Of a DNA stretch of 38,924 nt, positions 1 through 38,924 are shown piece by piece (the first letter of the stretch is position 1; each line of letters begins with the position of its first letter). The notes under the pieces are model-generated. The model was not told where the DNA came from and searched no databases. It saw only the letters and a program-made list of their open reading frames with translations. Both the position numbers and the translations under genes were made by a program. Location of the stretch: contig JAHDFX010000028.1 of assembly GCA_020627965.1 (NCBI GenBank), forward strand, positions 1 through 38,924. Reading direction: 5' to 3'. The DNA comes from Saprospiraceae bacterium (GTDB lineage Bacteria > Bacteroidota > Bacteroidia > Chitinophagales > Saprospiraceae).

Positions 1-52
1 GACCATCGACCATCGACCATCGACCATCGACCATCGACCATCGACCATCGAC
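1..52. repeat. Heptamer tandem repeat (GACCATC)n
   Basis: About 7.4 perfect head-to-tail copies of the 7-bp unit GACCATC occupy the left edge of the window and probably continue beyond it. A related heptamer (GACTATC/GACCATC) recurs in both orientations at 1651-1715, just past the next gene, so this belongs to a local family of intergenic repeats. No coding potential is evident. The 140 bases up to the first gene contain no promoter match I trust. Confidence 0.95.
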
Positions 53-191
53 CACAAAAAAACTAGATAACTTATAAGTAGACCGAGTGTTCCCCTCACT
101 TGGCAACGTTTTTGGAATATCATTATTAACATAATACCGGAAATACAGATTTCTGGTTATAAAGACTATTAAAAAACCAAAAGTAAAAGTC

Positions 192-30003: not shown

Positions 30004-33000
30004 TTAATTTTCTTCATTATTACAGCTCTCTGTATCTATTGAAAATTCTGCACCGACTTCCACAGAAAAGCCTGGATTTAACATAATCATCTCTCCGGCC
30101 GAAAACTCTACAGAAGTTCCAGCATTAACAGCTCCGTCAGCATTGACACAAGTCTCTGCCTGATAGTTTCCATCAGGTATGTTGCCTGTAGGCATAATTA
30201 ATGTAGGACAGGGATTATTGTTGCAGGGAAGTGGATTCCCCGAAGCATCAAATAGTTCGATATATTGCCCTAATACCTGAACAGCAACAGATGCTTCCAG
30301 ATCATTGTTGTCTGTAACTGTCACTTCATATATGTCTGGTGTAAGTTCAGTGATAGAAGATGTTGTCTCCCCGGTATTCCATTTATAAGAATAAGGCGGA
30401 GTGCCACCTGAAACCTCCACTGATGCTAATCCTAATGTATTGCATTGGGCATGGATCGTTGTTGCATTAAGTTCAGGCCCTCCTCCTGATAATACAAACT
30501 CATTATACTCATCATACACTGTTGTACCTGCTCCCATACTATAATCATTATCAATCTCTATCCTACTGCCATCACCAACACTGATACTAAAATCACCATC
30601 AAAAGAATTATCTAAAACTATGGTAAATGTAGCAATAGCTCCATCACAGAATTGATTATTCCCATCTATACGGGTTAGTGCTACATATAATGTGTTATTG
30701 TCAGAATGATAAAGACTAAAAGCATGATGAGGAGCTAAAGAAGAGCCTGTGGTATCCATTGTGATGGATGTGATGGGCGTATTCTCAAGGTTGAAGACAC
30801 ACGAAACACCATGTGCATAAACCGGATTACCTTCAAAATCTCTGACATGAAGTCCATATTGATAAATATTGCCAACTTCGCTGATCAGTTCAAGTTGATA
30901 ATAGAATAAAGTACTCGCCAATACAAAACTTGATGGCATAGTGCTACTACATACTTCATTATAATTACTGAGCCACACATCCAGATCGTCAAAATCTACG
31001 ACTCCGTTGCCATCTCCATCCTGATGTTTACTATTGATTCCTTCAACATTCTGAGACCAGTCTGTTGCCATCTGTGGAATCCATTCAGATGTTGCGTTAA
31101 GGCGTGGAGAACCTGTATAAGTAACTGCTTCGCCCCAGAATATTTCATCTGTCTGATCTACAACACAGTCATTATTAAAATCTCCGGGATTAACCGCACC
31201 ACTACAATCACTGGCTCCATTGAGACAAAAAGATTCCCAGGTAGCATTAAATCCATTTCCTGCACTGATATTTGCGCTGGTATTAAAATTAGAACTAAGC
31301 TGGTTACATAGAACGCTAAGTCCTTCTTCATAACAGCCAGAAAGTAGGTTGTCATGTGTATATAATGCACCCAGATTAGCAGCATTGGTCAATTCTATGG
31401 GAAGACCACCAGTGAGGTTATTATTATTCAAATAGAGGACTGTTAGTCCAGGTAAATTCCCGAAACTCACAGATATTTCTCCGCTCAGCGAATTAGTACC
31501 TAAATTAATAATTCCGATGCTTGACAGACCGCCAATTTCATCAGGAATAACTCCGCTAAGGTTGTTCTCGCTTAAATCCAGAAAAGTCATGTATTCCAGA
31601 TCACCAATAGCGGCGGGCAATGTACCGCTTAGTCCACGATTGCGGAGATTCAACACCTTCACACAACCATTAGGATTCAGGCTTACGCCCTCCCAGGTAG
31701 TCATGGGCCAGAATAGCTCCCAGGGATCACTCCACTGTGCGCCATTGGTAGCATAATATAATTCCACTAATGCCAGAGAATCGCTTTGGCGACAATTACA
31801 GTTACCTGCGACAATATCACATACAGCCTCGAAGACATTTTCCTGAAGCGTAGTTAATCCCGTATTACGTTCTATGATATCTGAGAGACTTGTATTCTCT
31901 ATTTCCATAATATCACTCATCAGTACAGGATCATTGAGATAAAAATAATAATCTCCATCACGTAGTCTCCTGAATTGCTCTGCGAGCATATTATGCAGCG
32001 TAAGTCCTATCTGAGAACCGGGTAGTTTATCTTCCGACAATAAGCCTACCCATAGATCAATATCGTCCACATTTCCGTAAAGGGTTGCCAGATTTGCCTC
32101 TAAGGTGGCATCACTCGTAATATCTGCAAAACTAACTGCTGAACTACCTGTAAACGCATTGCGATAAGCATTATAATCTGCTAATCCGTGGTCACGTCCT
32201 CTCTGTATATTGAAACTTGCCAGATCGAAGCCGGTACCACCTACCGGGGCAAATAGAAAAGTACGCAGTTCTTCTACAATCTTAATATCAATTTCTTCCT
32301 GATATTGAACAGACAAACCTTTTAAAACCGGATCAATGCCATTGGCGGCAGTCAGTGAAGGATTGAAAAATGCCTGAATCAGAGACACTCTTCCTGAGGC
32401 TACAAGACTTCCATTATCATTTACCAATAGTAATTCCGGTGGCACCATCGTATGCCCAAGTCGGAAAGCTGCCGTAGAAAAACCATTAAATAAATCGGGC
32501 TGAACGGTATTGTCATAGCCAGTATAAGCAGTTAAGTTTACACCCAAAGCTGGTAGGAATTCATTATAAGTAATGCTTTGCAATAAGGCGACTACACGTT
32601 TTTTAGCAATGCGATAAATCGTTTCATCATCGAACATTGGATCATAATTATTCGCTGTAATAATCTCGTCACAGAGTCGGTTATGTTCTCGTACAAACAG
32701 AGTATGTAAGGCTGTGAGACTAGACTGTTCATTGGCACGTACATCGCCAGCCACAAAGACAGGAGTATCGGGATTCTCTCCTGCCATAAAAGGCGCATCC
32801 TCGTTTATAGGACTGTTGAGTTCACCATCGGTAGTATTATAAGGTAGCAGATTCCCTGCGGAGGTTTTGAGTCTTCCGCCATTGCCAGTTCGTAGCCAGG
32901 TTGCCCGAATCTGGTCGGCACCATAAACATTCGAGCCATCAATCCATGCGGTAATCAAATTTACCTGCTCACGTGGCGTATTTACACCACTTCCTTCCAC

Positions 33001-33525
33001 AACCTCAGAGCGATGAAAACTAAGCATATTGGTAATCAAATCACCCGGCGCACCCGTCTCGGAAATATAAGCAGACTCCATTTCATTTTCTGGTGTTATA
33101 CCAATGTCGTGATCGAGAAACTGTCCCCAGCTAAATACAAAGGAGCTCAGTGTGGCGGAAGGAGGTGTATTACCTTGCTGAACGATAAGATTACTAATGA
33201 CTCTCGGATTAGGGCGTGTCGTACCTCCGAGTGCATTGAGTGGATCGGTTGCTCCATACTCAGAAGACAGTTCACGAAGTAAAGGAATTTCTGTAGCTCC
33301 CCAGTTGGCATTTGCAAGATTATTGCATCGCCCGAAGGTGTTTCTGAAGAGCAGTTGTGTACCACAGGTAGACCGCAATTGACCTTCCTCTTGTTTATTT
33401 GTTTTCGGGTAGTTACTAATAGTACCGCTGAATATGTGATGGTATTCTGTCTGCCCAAAGACAGATGCACCGATAAGCCAGCAAAGTAATAATGACCAGG
33501 TTTTAAATTGTATTGTAGCTTTCAT
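30004..33525 (-). CDS. Secreted animal-type heme peroxidase with LRR, dockerin-like, cohesin-like and SprB modules
   Basis: The 1173-residue protein has a signal peptide (ending SVFGQ, residue 25). The peroxidase domain (about 50-560) has distal His139 in WGQFLDHDIG with Ca-binding Asp140, catalytic Arg279 in LFVREHNRL and proximal His358 in FRLGHTMVP. It should oxidise halides or phenolics with H2O2. Next come plant-type leucine-rich repeats (about 577-735), an EF-hand/dockerin-like module (PGDFNNDCVVDQTD and DGDGNGVVDFDDLD, about 780-858), a cohesin-like beta domain with ALTRIDGNNQFCDG (about 862-1008), a SprB-type repeat (GGTPPYSYKWNTGETTSS, about 1018-1081), and a terminal domain resembling the 3-coathanger stack (SAGEMIMLNPGFSVEVGAEF). 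The same C-terminal chassis is present on the protease upstream. Confidence 0.93.
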   Translation of the reverse strand: MKATIQFKTWSLLLCWLIGASVFGQTEYHHIFSGTISNYPKTNKQEEGQLRSTCGTQLLFRNTFGRCNNLANANWGATEIPLLRELSSEYGATDPLNALGGTTRPNPRVISNLIVQQGNTPPSATLSSFVFSWGQFLDHDIGITPENEMESAYISETGAPGDLITNMLSFHRSEVVEGSGVNTPREQVNLITAWIDGSNVYGADQIRATWLRTGNGGRLKTSAGNLLPYNTTDGELNSPINEDAPFMAGENPDTPVFVAGDVRANEQSSLTALHTLFVREHNRLCDEIITANNYDPMFDDETIYRIAKKRVVALLQSITYNEFLPALGVNLTAYTGYDNTVQPDLFNGFSTAAFRLGHTMVPPELLLVNDNGSLVASGRVSLIQAFFNPSLTAANGIDPVLKGLSVQYQEEIDIKIVEELRTFLFAPVGGTGFDLASFNIQRGRDHGLADYNAYRNAFTGSSAVSFADITSDATLEANLATLYGNVDDIDLWVGLLSEDKLPGSQIGLTLHNMLAEQFRRLRDGDYYFYLNDPVLMSDIMEIENTSLSDIIERNTGLTTLQENVFEAVCDIVAGNCNCRQSDSLALVELYYATNGAQWSDPWELFWPMTTWEGVSLNPNGCVKVLNLRNRGLSGTLPAAIGDLEYMTFLDLSENNLSGVIPDEIGGLSSIGIINLGTNSLSGEISVSFGNLPGLTVLYLNNNNLTGGLPIELTNAANLGALYTHDNLLSGCYEEGLSVLCNQLSSNFNTSANISAGNGFNATWESFCLNGASDCSGAVNPGDFNNDCVVDQTDEIFWGEAVTYTGSPRLNATSEWIPQMATDWSQNVEGINSKHQDGDGNGVVDFDDLDVWLSNYNEVCSSTMPSSFVLASTLFYYQLELISEVGNIYQYGLHVRDFEGNPVYAHGVSCVFNLENTPITSITMDTTGSSLAPHHAFSLYHSDNNTLYVALTRIDGNNQFCDGAIATFTIVLDNSFDGDFSISVGDGSRIEIDNDYSMGAGTTVYDEYNEFVLSGGGPELNATTIHAQCNTLGLASVEVSGGTPPYSYKWNTGETTSSITELTPDIYEVTVTDNNDLEASVAVQVLGQYIELFDASGNPLPCNNNPCPTLIMPTGNIPDGNYQAETCVNADGAVNAGTSVEFSAGEMIMLNPGFSVEVGAEFSIDTESCNNEEN

Positions 33526-33575: not shown

Positions 33576-33711
33576 TGGGCTTCACATAGGTTTAAAAATG
33601 ATTTATTTTGATTTTAATAAATGTTTTTTAGGTTAAAAATTGTTTATTAATTTTGATTATCAGTAGGTTAGTGATGTTATTTAGGTTTTAAATAAATTTA
33701 ATAGGCTCTTA

Positions 33712-34151
33712 AAAACGGATTTGCACTTCCGAAGTACTAAGTGGTACTTCCAAACAATAAAATTGCTGCGCAAAAATACTAAATTACTCTTTCTGGTAGC
33801 AAAATTGCTGTGGGGAGCTATCAAGAGGTACTGTTCTGGAGTATAATTATTGTAAAGAAGTACTAAATGAAATGGTGTAGAATAAAATTACTATGTGGAG
33901 GTATCTTCTTGTACTTGTCAGGAGTAAATTTATTGAGAGGAAGTAGCACTTAGTACTCCCGAAGTGGAAAGTTGTTTCAGAGAAGTATTAAGTCGAGCTT
34001 ATGAAGTATCAAATTACATCGGGCAAGTGATTAGTCGACCCCTCAAAGTACTAAGTTGATGTAGTAAGCTACTGGTTTAATCTTCTGATGTATTAAATTA
34101 TTTCAAAGAAGTATTAAGCCGGGCTTCAGTACCGGGAAAATTTCGTACCGG
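33712..34151. repeat. Degenerate tandem array, 21 units of 21 bp
   Basis: Aligning on the core AGTAnTAAnTT gives 21 consecutive units. Eight start at 33712, 33733, 33754, 33775, 33796, 33817, 33838 and 33859. After a single one-base deletion, thirteen more run from 33879 to 34131 at exact 21-base steps. The clearest units are at 33733, 33984, 34005, 34047, 34089 and 34110. In the plus frame starting at 33733 most units read as heptads with Lys at the third position (STKWYFQ, TIKLLRK, NTKLLFL, VAKLLWG, AIKRYCS). Several units contain stops, so no intact protein is made. Confidence 0.85.
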
Positions 34152-34204
34152 CGCCTTTAATCACTGCTCGTATGTGTGTGTTCGGCGACTAAAGGCGCCG
34201 GTAC
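34145..34204. repeat. Perfect 15-bp inverted repeat, GC-rich
   Basis: GTACCGGCGCCTTTA (34145-34159) and TAAAGGCGCCGGTAC (34190-34204) are exactly complementary around a 30-base loop. It overlaps the end of the 21-bp array and abuts the terminator at 34206, which repeats the word GGCGC/GCGCC. The GC content is far above its surroundings. It could be a mobile repeat, a protein-binding site or a transcript-stabilising hairpin. Confidence 0.9.
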
Positions 34205-34205
34205 A

Positions 34206-34241
34206 TAAAAAAGCGCCTTTACCTTTCGATAAAGACGCTTT
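34206..34241 (-). terminator. Factor-independent terminator downstream of the protease gene
   Basis: On the minus strand, AAAGCGTCTTTA and TAAAGGCGCTTT form a 12-bp stem with one mismatch around an eight-base loop, followed by a run of Ts. It is about 210 bases past the protease stop (34448) and in the right orientation to end that transcript. Confidence 0.8.
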
Positions 34242-34447: not shown

Positions 34448-37400
34448 TTACTGACCACCGTCACACGGTTCGATTTCCCCAGAGAATTCCGCTCCCTGCT
34501 CGACAGAAAAGCCCGATTGTAATATGATACGCTCTTCGGCTTTGTATCCTACATTTACACCAGTGGGGAGCGTGCCGTTGGAATTGACGGTGGTTTTTGC
34601 CTGATATAAACTTCCTGAAACTGTACCGTTGGGCATCAGTAAAGTCGGGCACGGACTGTAATTACAATTGATTAGATTACCATTTTCATCATAATAAGGC
34701 AAATAATCACCTTTTACTTCTATTTCCAGTGTTTCAGTTAGCCCATAAACATCAGTAATGGTGACTTCGTAAAAATCAGCAGTTAAGTCAGTAATTTCGG
34801 GACCAGTATCACCTGTATTCCAGTAATAACTAATAGGAAAAGTACCTCCTACGACATTGACAGTGGCAGTGCCCGGTTGATTACAGTCCACATGAGTAAC
34901 ATTGGCCGTGACGAGCATATTGGTTGCCGAGGGTGAACCTTCCGTTCCTATACCATAGAAATCCAATCCAGAAATCCCATTGATTGAACCATCGGCGTTC
35001 ATACGTAATCCGCTCTGCACCCCAATCTTGGGTGGTTCGCCTGAGGGCAGATCTCCTTCTATTACGATAAAAGTAACTACCGGCCCTATACATTCTTTGT
35101 TGATGCCATCTGTACGGGTAAGGGCGGCATGGTACTGATTACGCAGGGTATCGAATACCGATATAGCCGCCATCGGTTCCAGTGAAGAACCTGTGGTATC
35201 CATACTAACCAAGGCAATAGGCACATCCTCAAAATCCAGTACGAGCGATACGCCGTGGGCTTCTGCCGGAGCGCCATTATCGTCTGTGATATATAGCTCG
35301 TATTGTGGTGTGCCTAAGACACGTACCAATTCATAGTTCACTGGAGAAGAAAGGGTGAATGGGGCATAATTATGTGTCTCCCCAAAATTATCAAGGATGA
35401 CATCTATATCGTCTGTATCGACTATTCCATTACCATCTGCATCTTGGTGTTTGCTGTTGACTCCCTGTACGTCCTGCATCCAGTCGGGGGCATCTTGTGG
35501 TATCCAGTCGGTAGTGGCATCGGGGCGAATGTCTCCTGTGTAACCTTCTGCCACGCCCCAGGTAAGGAGGTCTATTCCGTTGGCTATGCCGTCGTAGTTG
35601 AGGTCGCCAGGGTAGACTTTGGAGACGATTGGGCATATGCCTGCACGAGTGTTGCAGAAATCTTCCCAGGTGGCATCGAAGTTATTTCCGTTACTAATGG
35701 CAGAATTAGTATTCCACGTTGCCCCTAATTGAGTACAAAGAATAGCTAAAGTATCATTATAACAACCGTCTAAATTATTGTTTCTTAAATTCAGTGCCGA
35801 AACAGGAGTATTAATCAGATTTACCGGGATACTGCCAGAAATTTGATTGTCATACAAGTATAATGTACTCAAGCTAGATAGGTTTCCAAGCTCTGAGGGT
35901 ATATTACCACTAATCTGATTTTTTGCTAATGATAAGATTCTTAACTTTTCTAAGTTCCCTAATTCGGGAGGAATATTTCCATTTATTTGATTGGTGGTTA
36001 AGGATAAGACAATAAGACTATTTAAATCACCTAATTCAGGAGGAATTCCGCTTAATAAATTATTATTTAGGTTTAGTGTTGTCAAATTAGTAAGGTTTCC
36101 AATTTCGCAGGGAATAATACCGCTAAGTTGGTTGTTGTATAACCAGAAATCAATTATATTGGTTAGACTTCCGACAGTAGTAGGGATTTCTCCACTAATT
36201 TGATTGAATGAAAGCCATAGACGTTCTAAATTATTGAGGTTTCCTATATCTTGAGGAATAATTCCATTAAGTCCATTATTGGATAATCGAAGTTCTGTTA
36301 CGCAACCATTTTCATTTAGAGTTACCCCATACCAGTTATTTATTGTTAAACTCAGATCCCAGGTGTTTACCCAATTAGTGCCATCTGTAGAATTATACAA
36401 TGCAACTAGAGCAAGTGAATCATTCTGACGACATGGACTATACATGCTGCATATTCCTGTCCCCGTATTCAGAAAATCTTCCCAAGACACATCAAAATTA
36501 TTGCCATTGCTTACAGAAGAATTAGTACCAATAGAAAGGTTTAGTAAGCTAATATTGTAACAGCCACTAAGTTGGTTATTGTATAAAGAGAAAGTCTCTA
36601 AGCTATCTAAATTCCCTAAACCAGCAGGAATACTGCCACTAAGTTGATTATTGCTTAACCTCAAATCTATTAAACTACTTAGATTTTCCAATTCTGAAGG
36701 AATATAACCATATAATTGATTGTCTCGCAGAGATAAACCTGTAAGTTGATTTAAATTCCCTAGCTGAGGAGGTATATTTCCAGACAATTGATTTTCTGAT
36801 AAATACAGCTTATCTAACTTTACCAGACTTCCTAACTCAAAAGGAATTTCACCATTAAGTTGATTTCCATATAAAGACAAGTATCTTAATTCACTTAAAT
36901 TGCCTAGTTCAGGAGGAATATTACCACCTATAAATTGATTATTACCTAAATATAAATACCTTAAATCATTTAAATTGCCTAATTCAGGCGGAATATTTCC
37001 ACTCAGCTGATTATTATATAAATACAAATACTTTAAGTTAACCAAGTTTCCTAATTCTTTTGGAATACTGTCATTGAGTTCATTGTACCCCAAATTTAGA
37101 ATTATTAAATTATACAGCATCCCTAAACTGCTTGGAATATTACCAGTAATTTGAGTGTAGGATATTCGTAAATAAGTTAGACTTTCCATATTTCCTAACT
37201 CAGGGGGAATACTACCACCTAGTTGATAATTATTAGCCAAGTTTAAATACTCAACATTTTTCAAGTCACCTATTTCATATGGGATACTACCGATAAGATT
37301 ATTATAACTCAAATCTAAAAATGTCACTTCTTTTAAGTTATTGAGTATCGAAGGTATATTACCAGATAAGTTATTTCCGATAATATTAACATCATCATCG

Positions 37401-38924
37401 CAATCGAAATCACCATCCATATCAACACAGCTAACACATCCATTCTCATCTATTCCGATTCCATACCACGTTCCCATATCTATACTGTTCGAAAATGTAG
37501 GATTTGCATTGAAAAAAACAGCGTCAGGCCAACCACTATTATTAGTCCAATTATCACCATCTGTGCTTAAGTATAAAGCTCTTAAAGCGATATAATTAGA
37601 CTCTTCACAGCTAGGTTCAGAAGGTGCTACATAAGTGTCAAGTACTTCATGTAAATCCAATCGCCCATTGCTTACACATAATCCTGTCAATTCAGGAGTA
37701 ACAATAGCTGTGTTTAGAATGACTTCTTTGATATCTAAATAAGTTCTACTAGTATCTTGCTCCAATAAAAGGGCACAAGAGCCTGTAACATGTGGTGTAG
37801 CTTGCGAAGTCCCTTCTAGCGTACGATACAAGGATTGTGGAAAGTTAAAAGCACTTAAAATAGAAGTGCCTGGTGCAGCTACATCCACACTATCAGCTCC
37901 ATAATTAGAGCCTAGTCCATTTCCAAAAGTGGCCAGATTACCATTCTGATCTATAGCCGCTACCGAAATAATGTTATCTAAATCATAAGTGGCGGGGTAT
38001 TGTGCCAGATTGGGATTGTCATTATCATAAGCATCATTTCCAGCGGCAGCGACAAAAAGATGTCCTGCTGCCTGGGCATTCTCTATCGCATCATATACAA
38101 CCTGAGAGTAGCGAAAACTTCCCCAGCTATTGTTACTAATCGGCATATTCATCATTACGGCATAATTGATAGCTTCGGCAAGGCTGAAAGCGTCAGATTC
38201 ATTAATCTCAAAACATTTCAGAGCTGCCATCTGCACCTCCCAGGTGACACCAGATATACCTATGCTATTATTGCCTTCCGCACCAATAATACCTGCTACG
38301 TGTGTTCCGTGGAAATAACTGTCTGTCGGGTCATTATTGTTTTCAAAGAAGTCCCAGCCGATAAAGTCATCGGCATAGCCATTATTATCATTGTCTATAC
38401 CATCTATATCATCTTCATCAAATTGCCAGATGCCATTGACTAGTTCCAATACAACACCATCACCATCTGCATCTTCACCGAGGTTTTGCCAGATATTATT
38501 CACCAGATCAGGATGAAACCAGGAGATACCAGAATCAATGACCGCCACTTTTACAGAAGGGCTGCTACTTATGATGTCCCATGCTTCTGGTGCATTAATA
38601 TCTACGCCAGTTGTGGGATTATCAAGCGCCCATTGTTCATTGAATCGGGCATCATTGGGCAGCGTATTTTGTTGTAACGAAGTGGTCATTGGTGCTTCTG
38701 CCAATCGAAAAATGTAGTTCGGTTCTATGTACTCAATATCTGAATGGTAGCGGTATTGCCCAGCCAGTTGTCGAATATCTGTGAGGCTTTGTGCGTCTTC
38801 CACTTCCCATAATTCGACGGCAGTTTGCGGTATGGCTTTTCGGGCAGTAGCTCGCATTTGCGCTTTCAGGTTGTTTTTTTGTACAGCCGTTCTCCCAGGT
38901 TTTAGTTTTACGATGATTTGTCCG
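34448..38924 (-). CDS. Secreted subtilisin-like (S8) protease with LRR, dockerin-like, cohesin-like and SprB modules; 5' end outside window
   Basis: The frame stays open to the right edge: residues before the Met at 38857 (GQIIVKLKPG) belong to an I9-type propeptide, so the true start and signal peptide lie beyond 38924. Counting from that Met, the catalytic triad is Asp108 (VIDSG), His183 (HGTHVAG) and Ser351 (EGTSQATPHV), with oxyanion Asn274 (AAGND). An Asp/Asn-rich Ca-binding insert lies at about 128-180. Two blocks of plant-type LRRs follow (eleven units at about 491-765, seven at about 850-1030), then a dockerin-like module (about 1082-1158), a cohesin-like domain with ALTRTDG (about 1158-1310), a SprB-type repeat (about 1312-1379) and a terminal coathanger-like domain. 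The peroxidase gene downstream shares everything after the enzyme domain. Confidence 0.93.
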   Translation of the reverse strand, partial: GQIIVKLKPGRTAVQKNNLKAQMRATARKAIPQTAVELWEVEDAQSLTDIRQLAGQYRYHSDIEYIEPNYIFRLAEAPMTTSLQQNTLPNDARFNEQWALDNPTTGVDINAPEAWDIISSSPSVKVAVIDSGISWFHPDLVNNIWQNLGEDADGDGVVLELVNGIWQFDEDDIDGIDNDNNGYADDFIGWDFFENNNDPTDSYFHGTHVAGIIGAEGNNSIGISGVTWEVQMAALKCFEINESDAFSLAEAINYAVMMNMPISNNSWGSFRYSQVVYDAIENAQAAGHLFVAAAGNDAYDNDNPNLAQYPATYDLDNIISVAAIDQNGNLATFGNGLGSNYGADSVDVAAPGTSILSAFNFPQSLYRTLEGTSQATPHVTGSCALLLEQDTSRTYLDIKEVILNTAIVTPELTGLCVSNGRLDLHEVLDTYVAPSEPSCEESNYIALRALYLSTDGDNWTNNSGWPDAVFFNANPTFSNSIDMGTWYGIGIDENGCVSCVDMDGDFDCDDDVNIIGNNLSGNIPSILNNLKEVTFLDLSYNNLIGSIPYEIGDLKNVEYLNLANNYQLGGSIPPELGNMESLTYLRISYTQITGNIPSSLGMLYNLIILNLGYNELNDSIPKELGNLVNLKYLYLYNNQLSGNIPPELGNLNDLRYLYLGNNQFIGGNIPPELGNLSELRYLSLYGNQLNGEIPFELGSLVKLDKLYLSENQLSGNIPPQLGNLNQLTGLSLRDNQLYGYIPSELENLSSLIDLRLSNNQLSGSIPAGLGNLDSLETFSLYNNQLSGCYNISLLNLSIGTNSSVSNGNNFDVSWEDFLNTGTGICSMYSPCRQNDSLALVALYNSTDGTNWVNTWDLSLTINNWYGVTLNENGCVTELRLSNNGLNGIIPQDIGNLNNLERLWLSFNQISGEIPTTVGSLTNIIDFWLYNNQLSGIIPCEIGNLTNLTTLNLNNNLLSGIPPELGDLNSLIVLSLTTNQINGNIPPELGNLEKLRILSLAKNQISGNIPSELGNLSSLSTLYLYDNQISGSIPVNLINTPVSALNLRNNNLDGCYNDTLAILCTQLGATWNTNSAISNGNNFDATWEDFCNTRAGICPIVSKVYPGDLNYDGIANGIDLLTWGVAEGYTGDIRPDATTDWIPQDAPDWMQDVQGVNSKHQDADGNGIVDTDDIDVILDNFGETHNYAPFTLSSPVNYELVRVLGTPQYELYITDDNGAPAEAHGVSLVLDFEDVPIALVSMDTTGSSLEPMAAISVFDTLRNQYHAALTRTDGINKECIGPVVTFIVIEGDLPSGEPPKIGVQSGLRMNADGSINGISGLDFYGIGTEGSPSATNMLVTANVTHVDCNQPGTATVNVVGGTFPISYYWNTGDTGPEITDLTADFYEVTITDVYGLTETLEIEVKGDYLPYYDENGNLINCNYSPCPTLLMPNGTVSGSLYQAKTTVNSNGTLPTGVNVGYKAEERIILQSGFSVEQGAEFSGEIEPCDGGQ
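35770..37385. repeat. 72-bp tandem repeats encoding leucine-rich repeats
   Basis: Two blocks of 72-bp units (24 residues; consensus LSGNIPPELGNLxxLxxLxLxxN) repeat at the DNA level. The recurring words are of the type CCTAATTCAGGAGGAATATT, for example at about 35950, 36020, 36895 and 36970. The region is clearly more AT-rich than the protease and dockerin code on either side. Such repeats favour unit gain and loss by slippage or recombination. Confidence 0.85.

Follow-up and report, generated by a model that had tools for sequence, protein, structure and literature searches.

What is a 21-bp tandem array doing between two giant genes for secreted enzymes, and what could keep its units in step when their letters differ so widely? 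The question is raised by a 38,924-nt stretch of DNA from a Saprospiraceae bacterium (contig JAHDFX010000028.1), referred to here as the window. The array lies at 33712–34139 (no strand assigned), ~187 bp upstream of the start of a minus-strand gene (30004–33525) in which Pfam recognises an animal-haem-peroxidase domain, LRR and a SprB repeat, and ~309 bp past the end of a second minus-strand gene (34448–38857) with subtilase (S8), LRRs and a SprB repeat. A preliminary description made from the letters alone had proposed a phased protein-binding region, a decayed heptad-repeat gene or an unclassified repeat family.

The array is real. At lags of 21, 42, 63 and 84, the self-match of 33700–34170 amounts to 0.389, 0.464, 0.375 and 0.437, respectively, all of which exceed 0.369, the highest value found at any of 88 lags in 2000 Markov shuffles (at lag 21, the shuffles have a mean of 0.269 and an sd of 0.022). 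Likewise, a cyclic profile of period 21 on 33712–34139 scores 225 bits; periods of 19, 20, 22 and 23 score 51–65 bits, and eight mononucleotide shuffles no more than 70. The 42-bp order, which is stronger than the 21-bp one, had escaped the preliminary description. The profile consensus, cTnnngAAGTAtnAAnTTgnt, agrees with the core AGTAnTAAnTT read earlier, and 252 of the 428 bases agree with the array's own consensus. Self-match, profile and unit segmentation together give about 20 dyad units of 21 bp, and of the 19 complete ones (33731–34128), 18 have 21 nt and one, near 33876, has 20 nt. The initial count of 21 copies interrupted by a single one-base deletion is therefore sound as to copy number (~20–21) and that deletion, but a model with cheaper indels admits two deleted bases and one inserted base. 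Of the checks originally suggested, autocorrelation peaks above the shuffles, and a repeat finder does not pick up the array: it is absent from the list of Tandem Repeats Finder.

The unit is a dyad, i.e. a palindrome, a feature that had also been missed. On a larger scale, the units make up a long imperfect inverted repeat, likewise overlooked at first, the 67-nt left arm of which (33713–33779, plus strand) is 75% complementary to its 67-nt right arm (33911–33977, minus strand). In a joint profile of four arrays from the same genome, 68 of whose 71 units measure exactly 21 nt, the dyad symmetry correlation is 0.78, with a maximum of 0.66 in 300 column permutations. A second dyad half a period away is forced in any periodic palindrome and thus counts as no extra evidence.

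The range first given, 33712–34151, includes the array, but its end overlaps a separate dispersed hairpin repeat of ~60 bp (34145–34204, no strand assigned; stem GTACCGGCGCCTTTA / GTACCGGCGCCTTTAGTCGCCG), which is a neighbour and not part of the array. Blastn found nine further strong copies of this hairpin in the genome (L002–L010), some at contig ends; it was rejected as a companion of the array because eight of the nine have no array next to them, the exception being in C185. A terminator-like hairpin sits 3′ of the S8 protease gene (34210–34241, minus strand; one found, shuffles mean 0.7), and a GACCATC heptanucleotide microsatellite of 7.7 copies occupies window positions 1–54 at the start of the contig.

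Searching the host genome by blastn, with the sequence-only 84-column model R1 and through one shared flank yielded 14 additional arrays, making 15 loci with the window (contigs C244, C285 with two, C356, C236, C25, C180, C217, C153, C324, C159, C185, C13 and C371). The suggestion of an unclassified repeat family is borne out in that the window array belongs to a dispersed class. A pattern built on its core had no match in its own genome, and blastn had none among plasmids. The 21-bp period is built into R1, the source of most of these arrays. At a score of 0.47, no 21-bp array appeared in 233 kb of the same genome chosen regardless of arrays or in 323 kb of the relative G003, a threshold reached by 10 of the 15 known loci (C13, C153, C159, C185 and C217 fall below). 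Unit sequences vary between loci (GAAGTAnTAAnTTn, AGCAACGTTGCTGCTCGGAAG, TAGTTATTAACTATAATATTT and, in C13, ACGTATATnATATACGT) to the extent that a single genome holds unrelated units (ACGTATATnATATACGT versus AGCAACGTTGCT). The period varies as well: the C13 array, found via the flank, has 22 bp and not 21, the C159 and C185 arrays are by eye 43-bp dimers, and in C217 a 31-bp-period array (GTCCTGAAATAGGTTGTCATGCAAAAAGCAT; L073:5860–6042), corresponding to about three helical turns, comes directly after the 21-bp array.

Several contigs start or finish inside arrays. A 24-nt flank, AAAACTGACACAGAATTTTGAACA, has four copies in the genome, each with at most one mismatch in a search that allowed up to three (L032:14695–14718, L025:7963–7986, L076:196–219 and L074:7042–7065), and each adjoins an array or has one within ~120 bp, with units that differ between these arrays; that it is the leader of a system could not be established. 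That C217 and C236 have a flank in common may reflect a fork in the assembly graph. The arrays in this genome look intergenic, yet ORFs of 81–128 aa overlap 5 of 14 loci (C371 left out). By Pfam, the 27 flanking proteins fall into unrelated families or none and have no family in common (peroxidase, subtilase, type I restriction subunits, VasX-N-terminal protein, GcvT, dehydrogenase E1, PorP/SprF, O-antigen ligase and M36 peptidase, among others). The Por secretion tail and the PorP/SprF and SprB domains among them suggest that the host is one of the Bacteroidota and uses type IX secretion.

Relatives were searched at increasing distance. Among 37 genomes of the genus and family, R1 with sensitive filters retrieved the own genome plus one weak single match in G013; with stricter filters, 3 of 148 genomes including the own one were matched, and the foreign matches (G013 and G055) are no arrays by eye; finally, model R2 with stricter filters matched the own genome alone among 395 sampled from the phylum. 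Orthologous genes were compared in genomes of the same genus, on one side of each gene: by eye, there is no array upstream of the dehydrogenase E1 gene in G001, G002, G004, G009 and ~225 bp of G005, nor downstream of gcvT in G001, G002, G003 and G005 (the G004 contig ends there). The arrays look lineage-specific.

For distant genomes, a collection was searched with a pattern that places two AGYAAnnTTRCT palindromes at a distance of 21 bp and so itself imposes the 21-bp period. It returned 49 stretches, 12 of which, from 10 genomes in six phyla, were judged by inspection to be apparently noncoding arrays of at least five units; the remaining stretches have fewer units or are coding or chance in appearance. 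The 12 arrays come from Bacteroidetes bin-0845 (two), Verrucomicrobiaceae UBA2429, Prevotellaceae Gx481, Prevotellaceae Cc175, Bacteroidales Gx485, Hormoscilla (two), a Desulfobacteraceae MAG, two Zoogloea MAGs and Acidobacteria gp5 AA64. When R2 was run on 14 source genomes, it revealed more than one array in a genome: the matching contigs numbered 12 in the acidobacterium, 4 in Prevotellaceae Gx481 and 2 in each Zoogloea. A three-unit stretch inside a peptidase ORF (L158) was dropped as evidence, though it forms one row of R2. Four phage contigs (L173, L185, L187 and L192) carry apparently coding 21-bp repeats, by eye probably NSSNFAN-type tail-fibre heptads, that are unrelated to the arrays.

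How strictly is the spacing kept? With indel-aware profiles, the best period among 19–23 is 21 in 23 of 25 arrays and 22 in the other two (C13 and C159). Nine of the 25 can be fitted without any indel, and the total for the set is 42 indel bases over 6600 bp, with three and four inserted bases in the two Zoogloea arrays. In the acidobacterial MAG, ten paralogs of one ~500-bp array (L226–L233, L235 and L164) could be aligned, which share the same unit order and differ at their ends, as though the array moved as a whole; two of them, L226 and L164, are without exactly 63 bp, i.e. three units. Substitutions and indels were counted separately in the array and in the homologous right flank of these paralogs, a comparison within one genome, on one flank side and between pairs that are not independent. 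For the six pairs in which the homologous flank reaches 95 bp or more, substitutions and indels number 185 and 5 in the array and 70 and 21 in the flank (0.027 versus 0.30 indels per substitution), and all 15 pairs of six paralogs have 541 and 26 versus 72 and 25, so that indels per substitution in the array are ~1/10 (6 pairs) to ~1/7 (15 pairs) of those in the flank. The three disjoint pairings of four paralogs give substitutions/indels of 57/1 versus 24/6 (Fisher p = 0.006), 59/3 versus 24/6 (p = 0.054, not significant) and 69/1 versus 22/9 (p = 0.00008) for array and flank, respectively. The spacing of the array seems to be constrained, and this contrast, from one genome, is the main evidence for selection on its phase.

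Since 21 bp equal seven codons, a period divisible by three might also reflect a heptad-repeat gene, decayed or live, and some phage contigs matching the same pattern do look like coding heptads by eye. The window array, however, is noncoding, with 8–10 stops in each of the six frames, and stops in all six frames are found in 10 of 24 arrays, i.e. in nine others besides it. The other 14 keep at least one open frame, as is easily the case where units are alike, so that an individual array among them may be coding. Codon-level conservation, which had been named as a way of deciding the matter, yields no codon-position signal in the ten acidobacterial paralogs: their mean pairwise divergence is 0.176, with 0.187, 0.164 and 0.176 for the three codon phases, and the dN/dS-like ratios of the six frames are 0.72–1.07. 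Both the stops and the paralogs speak against the decayed gene of the preliminary description, and we consider a heptad gene of either kind barely credible.

Dyad units might instead act as hairpins, either in a transcribed chain of RNA hairpins or in single-stranded DNA or cruciforms, with each unit folding. RNA folds of 33712–34210, a range that includes the separate 60-bp hairpin, are indeed stabler than those of 100 shuffles, with z values of −5.4 and −7.1 for the two strands. Covariation between the arms of units, calculated at a fixed 21-bp phase, likewise gave z = 7.1, but this figure is misleading because several arrays shift register (the window and Zoogloea arrays, as well as C13 with its 22 bp). 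In an indel-aware register, z drops to 2.9 for 25 arrays (null mean 1.3, sd 0.95, max 3.5 of 200) and, once C285a and Acido164 are removed, to 0.4 (null mean 1.2); arm covariation was therefore withdrawn as evidence, being largely a register artefact. Compensatory changes between paralogs number nine at the best dyad, which is inside the range of control phases (median 5, maximum 11). When the phase is held fixed, 5 of 24 arrays have a bias between G-U and A-C mismatches at p < 0.05 (three to G-U, two to A-C); in the corrected register 3 of 25 do (one to G-U, two to A-C), which is a point for hairpins. The window array has 23 to 16 (p = 0.34). There is thus no consistent RNA signature of this kind across the arrays, and Rfam 15 has no match in the window at gathering score. 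With the mismatch bias inconsistent and the covariation largely artefactual, the dyad appears to be a property of the unit consensus, as in protein sites. The loss of covariation in the corrected register led us to grade the hairpin chain lower, as improbable, and to grade higher the possibility of a satellite.

Such a satellite, selfish or neutral and palindromic, is the main rival explanation. It would arise through slippage and hairpin-templated copying, spread as a passenger, keep its phase mainly because whole 21-bp units are exchanged or lost, and have no function for the cell. We regard it as a serious, if somewhat doubtful, possibility, which owes its strength to the sporadic occurrence of the arrays: a single genome in 395 of the phylum under stricter filters, and two orthologous genes that in relatives have no array beside them. 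The unrelated neighbours, the duplication of whole arrays with variable ends in the acidobacterium and the contigs that begin or end in arrays fit it as well. Neutral drift to 59% consensus identity, however, should bring many indels, but the window array shows 1–3 bases, and the paralogs have the low ratio of indels to substitutions described above. Moreover, a period of 21–22 bp recurs in spite of differing unit sequences, though the searches favoured that period.

Of the readings first offered, the phased protein-binding region is the best supported, owing to few indels in noncoding DNA, dyads and two-turn spacing, but no binding protein was found. It is the one we lean towards, without calling it probable, in the form of a DNA-level, helically phased multi-site platform for a dimeric protein. 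Two features expected of such a platform, a period near a whole number of turns and dyad units, are present in the array. Its ~20 dyad sites, one per two B-DNA turns, would all lie on one side of the helix; a dimeric DNA-binding protein would load onto them cooperatively, one dimer per 21-bp unit; and as regular spacing and twofold symmetry would outweigh the letters, weak units could be filled through neighbour contacts. Cooperatively filled dimer sites on one DNA face would be the simplest mechanism by which phase is kept better than sequence. The period, the dyads, the dispersal, the noncoding nature of the window array and, in one set of paralogs, the low number of indels per substitution are observed; selection on the spacing, a bound protein, its cooperativity and any effect on the chromosome or neighbouring genes are inferred. 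Two-unit sites upstream of AAA_14-DUF4143 ORFs, described below, resemble paired operator sites and fit the platform. Against it stand the lack of an identified protein and of a family common to the 27 neighbouring proteins scanned, and the unrelated units in one genome, which a single sequence-specific protein would hardly explain. The period of 21 was built into the searches, and C13 (22), C159 and C185 (43-bp dimers) and C217 (with its 31-bp array) depart from it; DNA of the same genus is without arrays at orthologous genes, and the Zoogloea arrays have 3–4 inserted bases each. Finally, the indel contrast comes from one genome, few paralogs and a one-sided flank, with one pairing at p = 0.054.

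The platform might even stand for a more general, unnamed class of sporadic bacterial DNA elements, in which selection would hold the two-turn period and twofold symmetry and leave the letters largely free. Such an element would be a noncoding scaffold on which a nucleoprotein filament tolerant of sequence forms, a kind of bacterial array for positioning or akin to a centromere, which different phyla would have re-invented or exchanged. We think this rather unlikely. Noncoding DNA whose spacing is better preserved than its letters evades similarity searches as well as the tandem-repeat finder employed here. Should the phase truly be under selection, it would imply a new protein able to read the geometry of DNA and to line up along it, and multi-copy docking sites in some bacteria.

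A limited search of the open-licence literature returned no description of, or name for, such arrays, which share features with several known systems. Like minisatellites and VNTRs, they consist of head-to-tail repeats and change copy number by whole units; unlike them, they have dyads and few indels, and the units of the window array have diverged so far that Tandem Repeats Finder misses them. The window array is not a CRISPR array, judging from a repeat layout in which units are diverged throughout their length, without partition into spacers. Iteron origins and plasmid centromere arrays such as sopC have repeats near two or four helical turns, and their units are near-identical and adjoin a rep or par gene. 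The arrays are similarly spaced near two helical turns, and none of the 27 flanking proteins scanned with Pfam has a Rep domain, so that the window array does not qualify as an iteron origin.

The geometry proposed for the platform exists elsewhere, as BvgA (PMC7250471) and p6 of phi29 (PMC10899789) illustrate. At Bordetella promoters, BvgA dimers bind head-to-head every 22 bp (two turns) on one face, using weak degenerate sites with help from neighbours (PMC7250471). Two-turn spacing, a single face and weak degenerate dimer sites are also what we propose here from sequence; BvgA sites, in contrast, number three or six in the cited cases, at promoters, whereas each array has ~20, there are many arrays, no protein is known and they are not tied to one gene class. 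p6 of phi29 binds as dimers every 24 bp and recognises bendability rather than a specific sequence (PMC10899789), comparable to the fixed dimer period, with letters secondary, proposed for the arrays. Unlike in the arrays, p6 is a phage genome protein with a period of 24, and tandem palindromes do not figure in the cited passages. The LIMP elements of Lobosphaera mitochondria are, like the arrays, dispersed and both palindromic and internally repetitive, but they consist of pentanucleotide repeats that form one long stem with a fixed loop (PMC4524435).

REP/BIME elements are dispersed extragenic palindromes, sometimes in tandem, with a GTAG or CGTC tag and, for GTAG, a RAYT (PMC3733652). The arrays are equally dispersed, palindromic and tandem, which would fit palindromes of the REP type that owe their spread to a RAYT (Y1 tyrosine) transposase. 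Yet we hold this origin to be very improbable: units read by eye have no constant GTAG or CGTC tag, unit sequence is not conserved, and PF01797 (E ≤ 1e-5) has no match in five array genomes (the window's own, G000, and G150, G152, G153 and G155), several genomes being incomplete MAGs. A match at the same threshold is present in G148, G149, G151, G154 and G156.

The distant search also brought up a smaller type of site. In four genomes, two AGTAAAnTTACT-type palindromes lie 21 bp apart and 15–34 bp upstream of AAA_14-DUF4143 ORFs (L142:1626–1658 and L165:963–995, both Geobacter; L169:3461–3493, Geobacteraceae; L128:2336–2368, Omnitrophota), accounting for at least 4 of the 49 pattern stretches. 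A link between the arrays and AAA_14-DUF4143 proteins was considered; just two-unit sites were seen beside such genes. The two-unit site is a candidate operator for this uncharacterised ATPase family.
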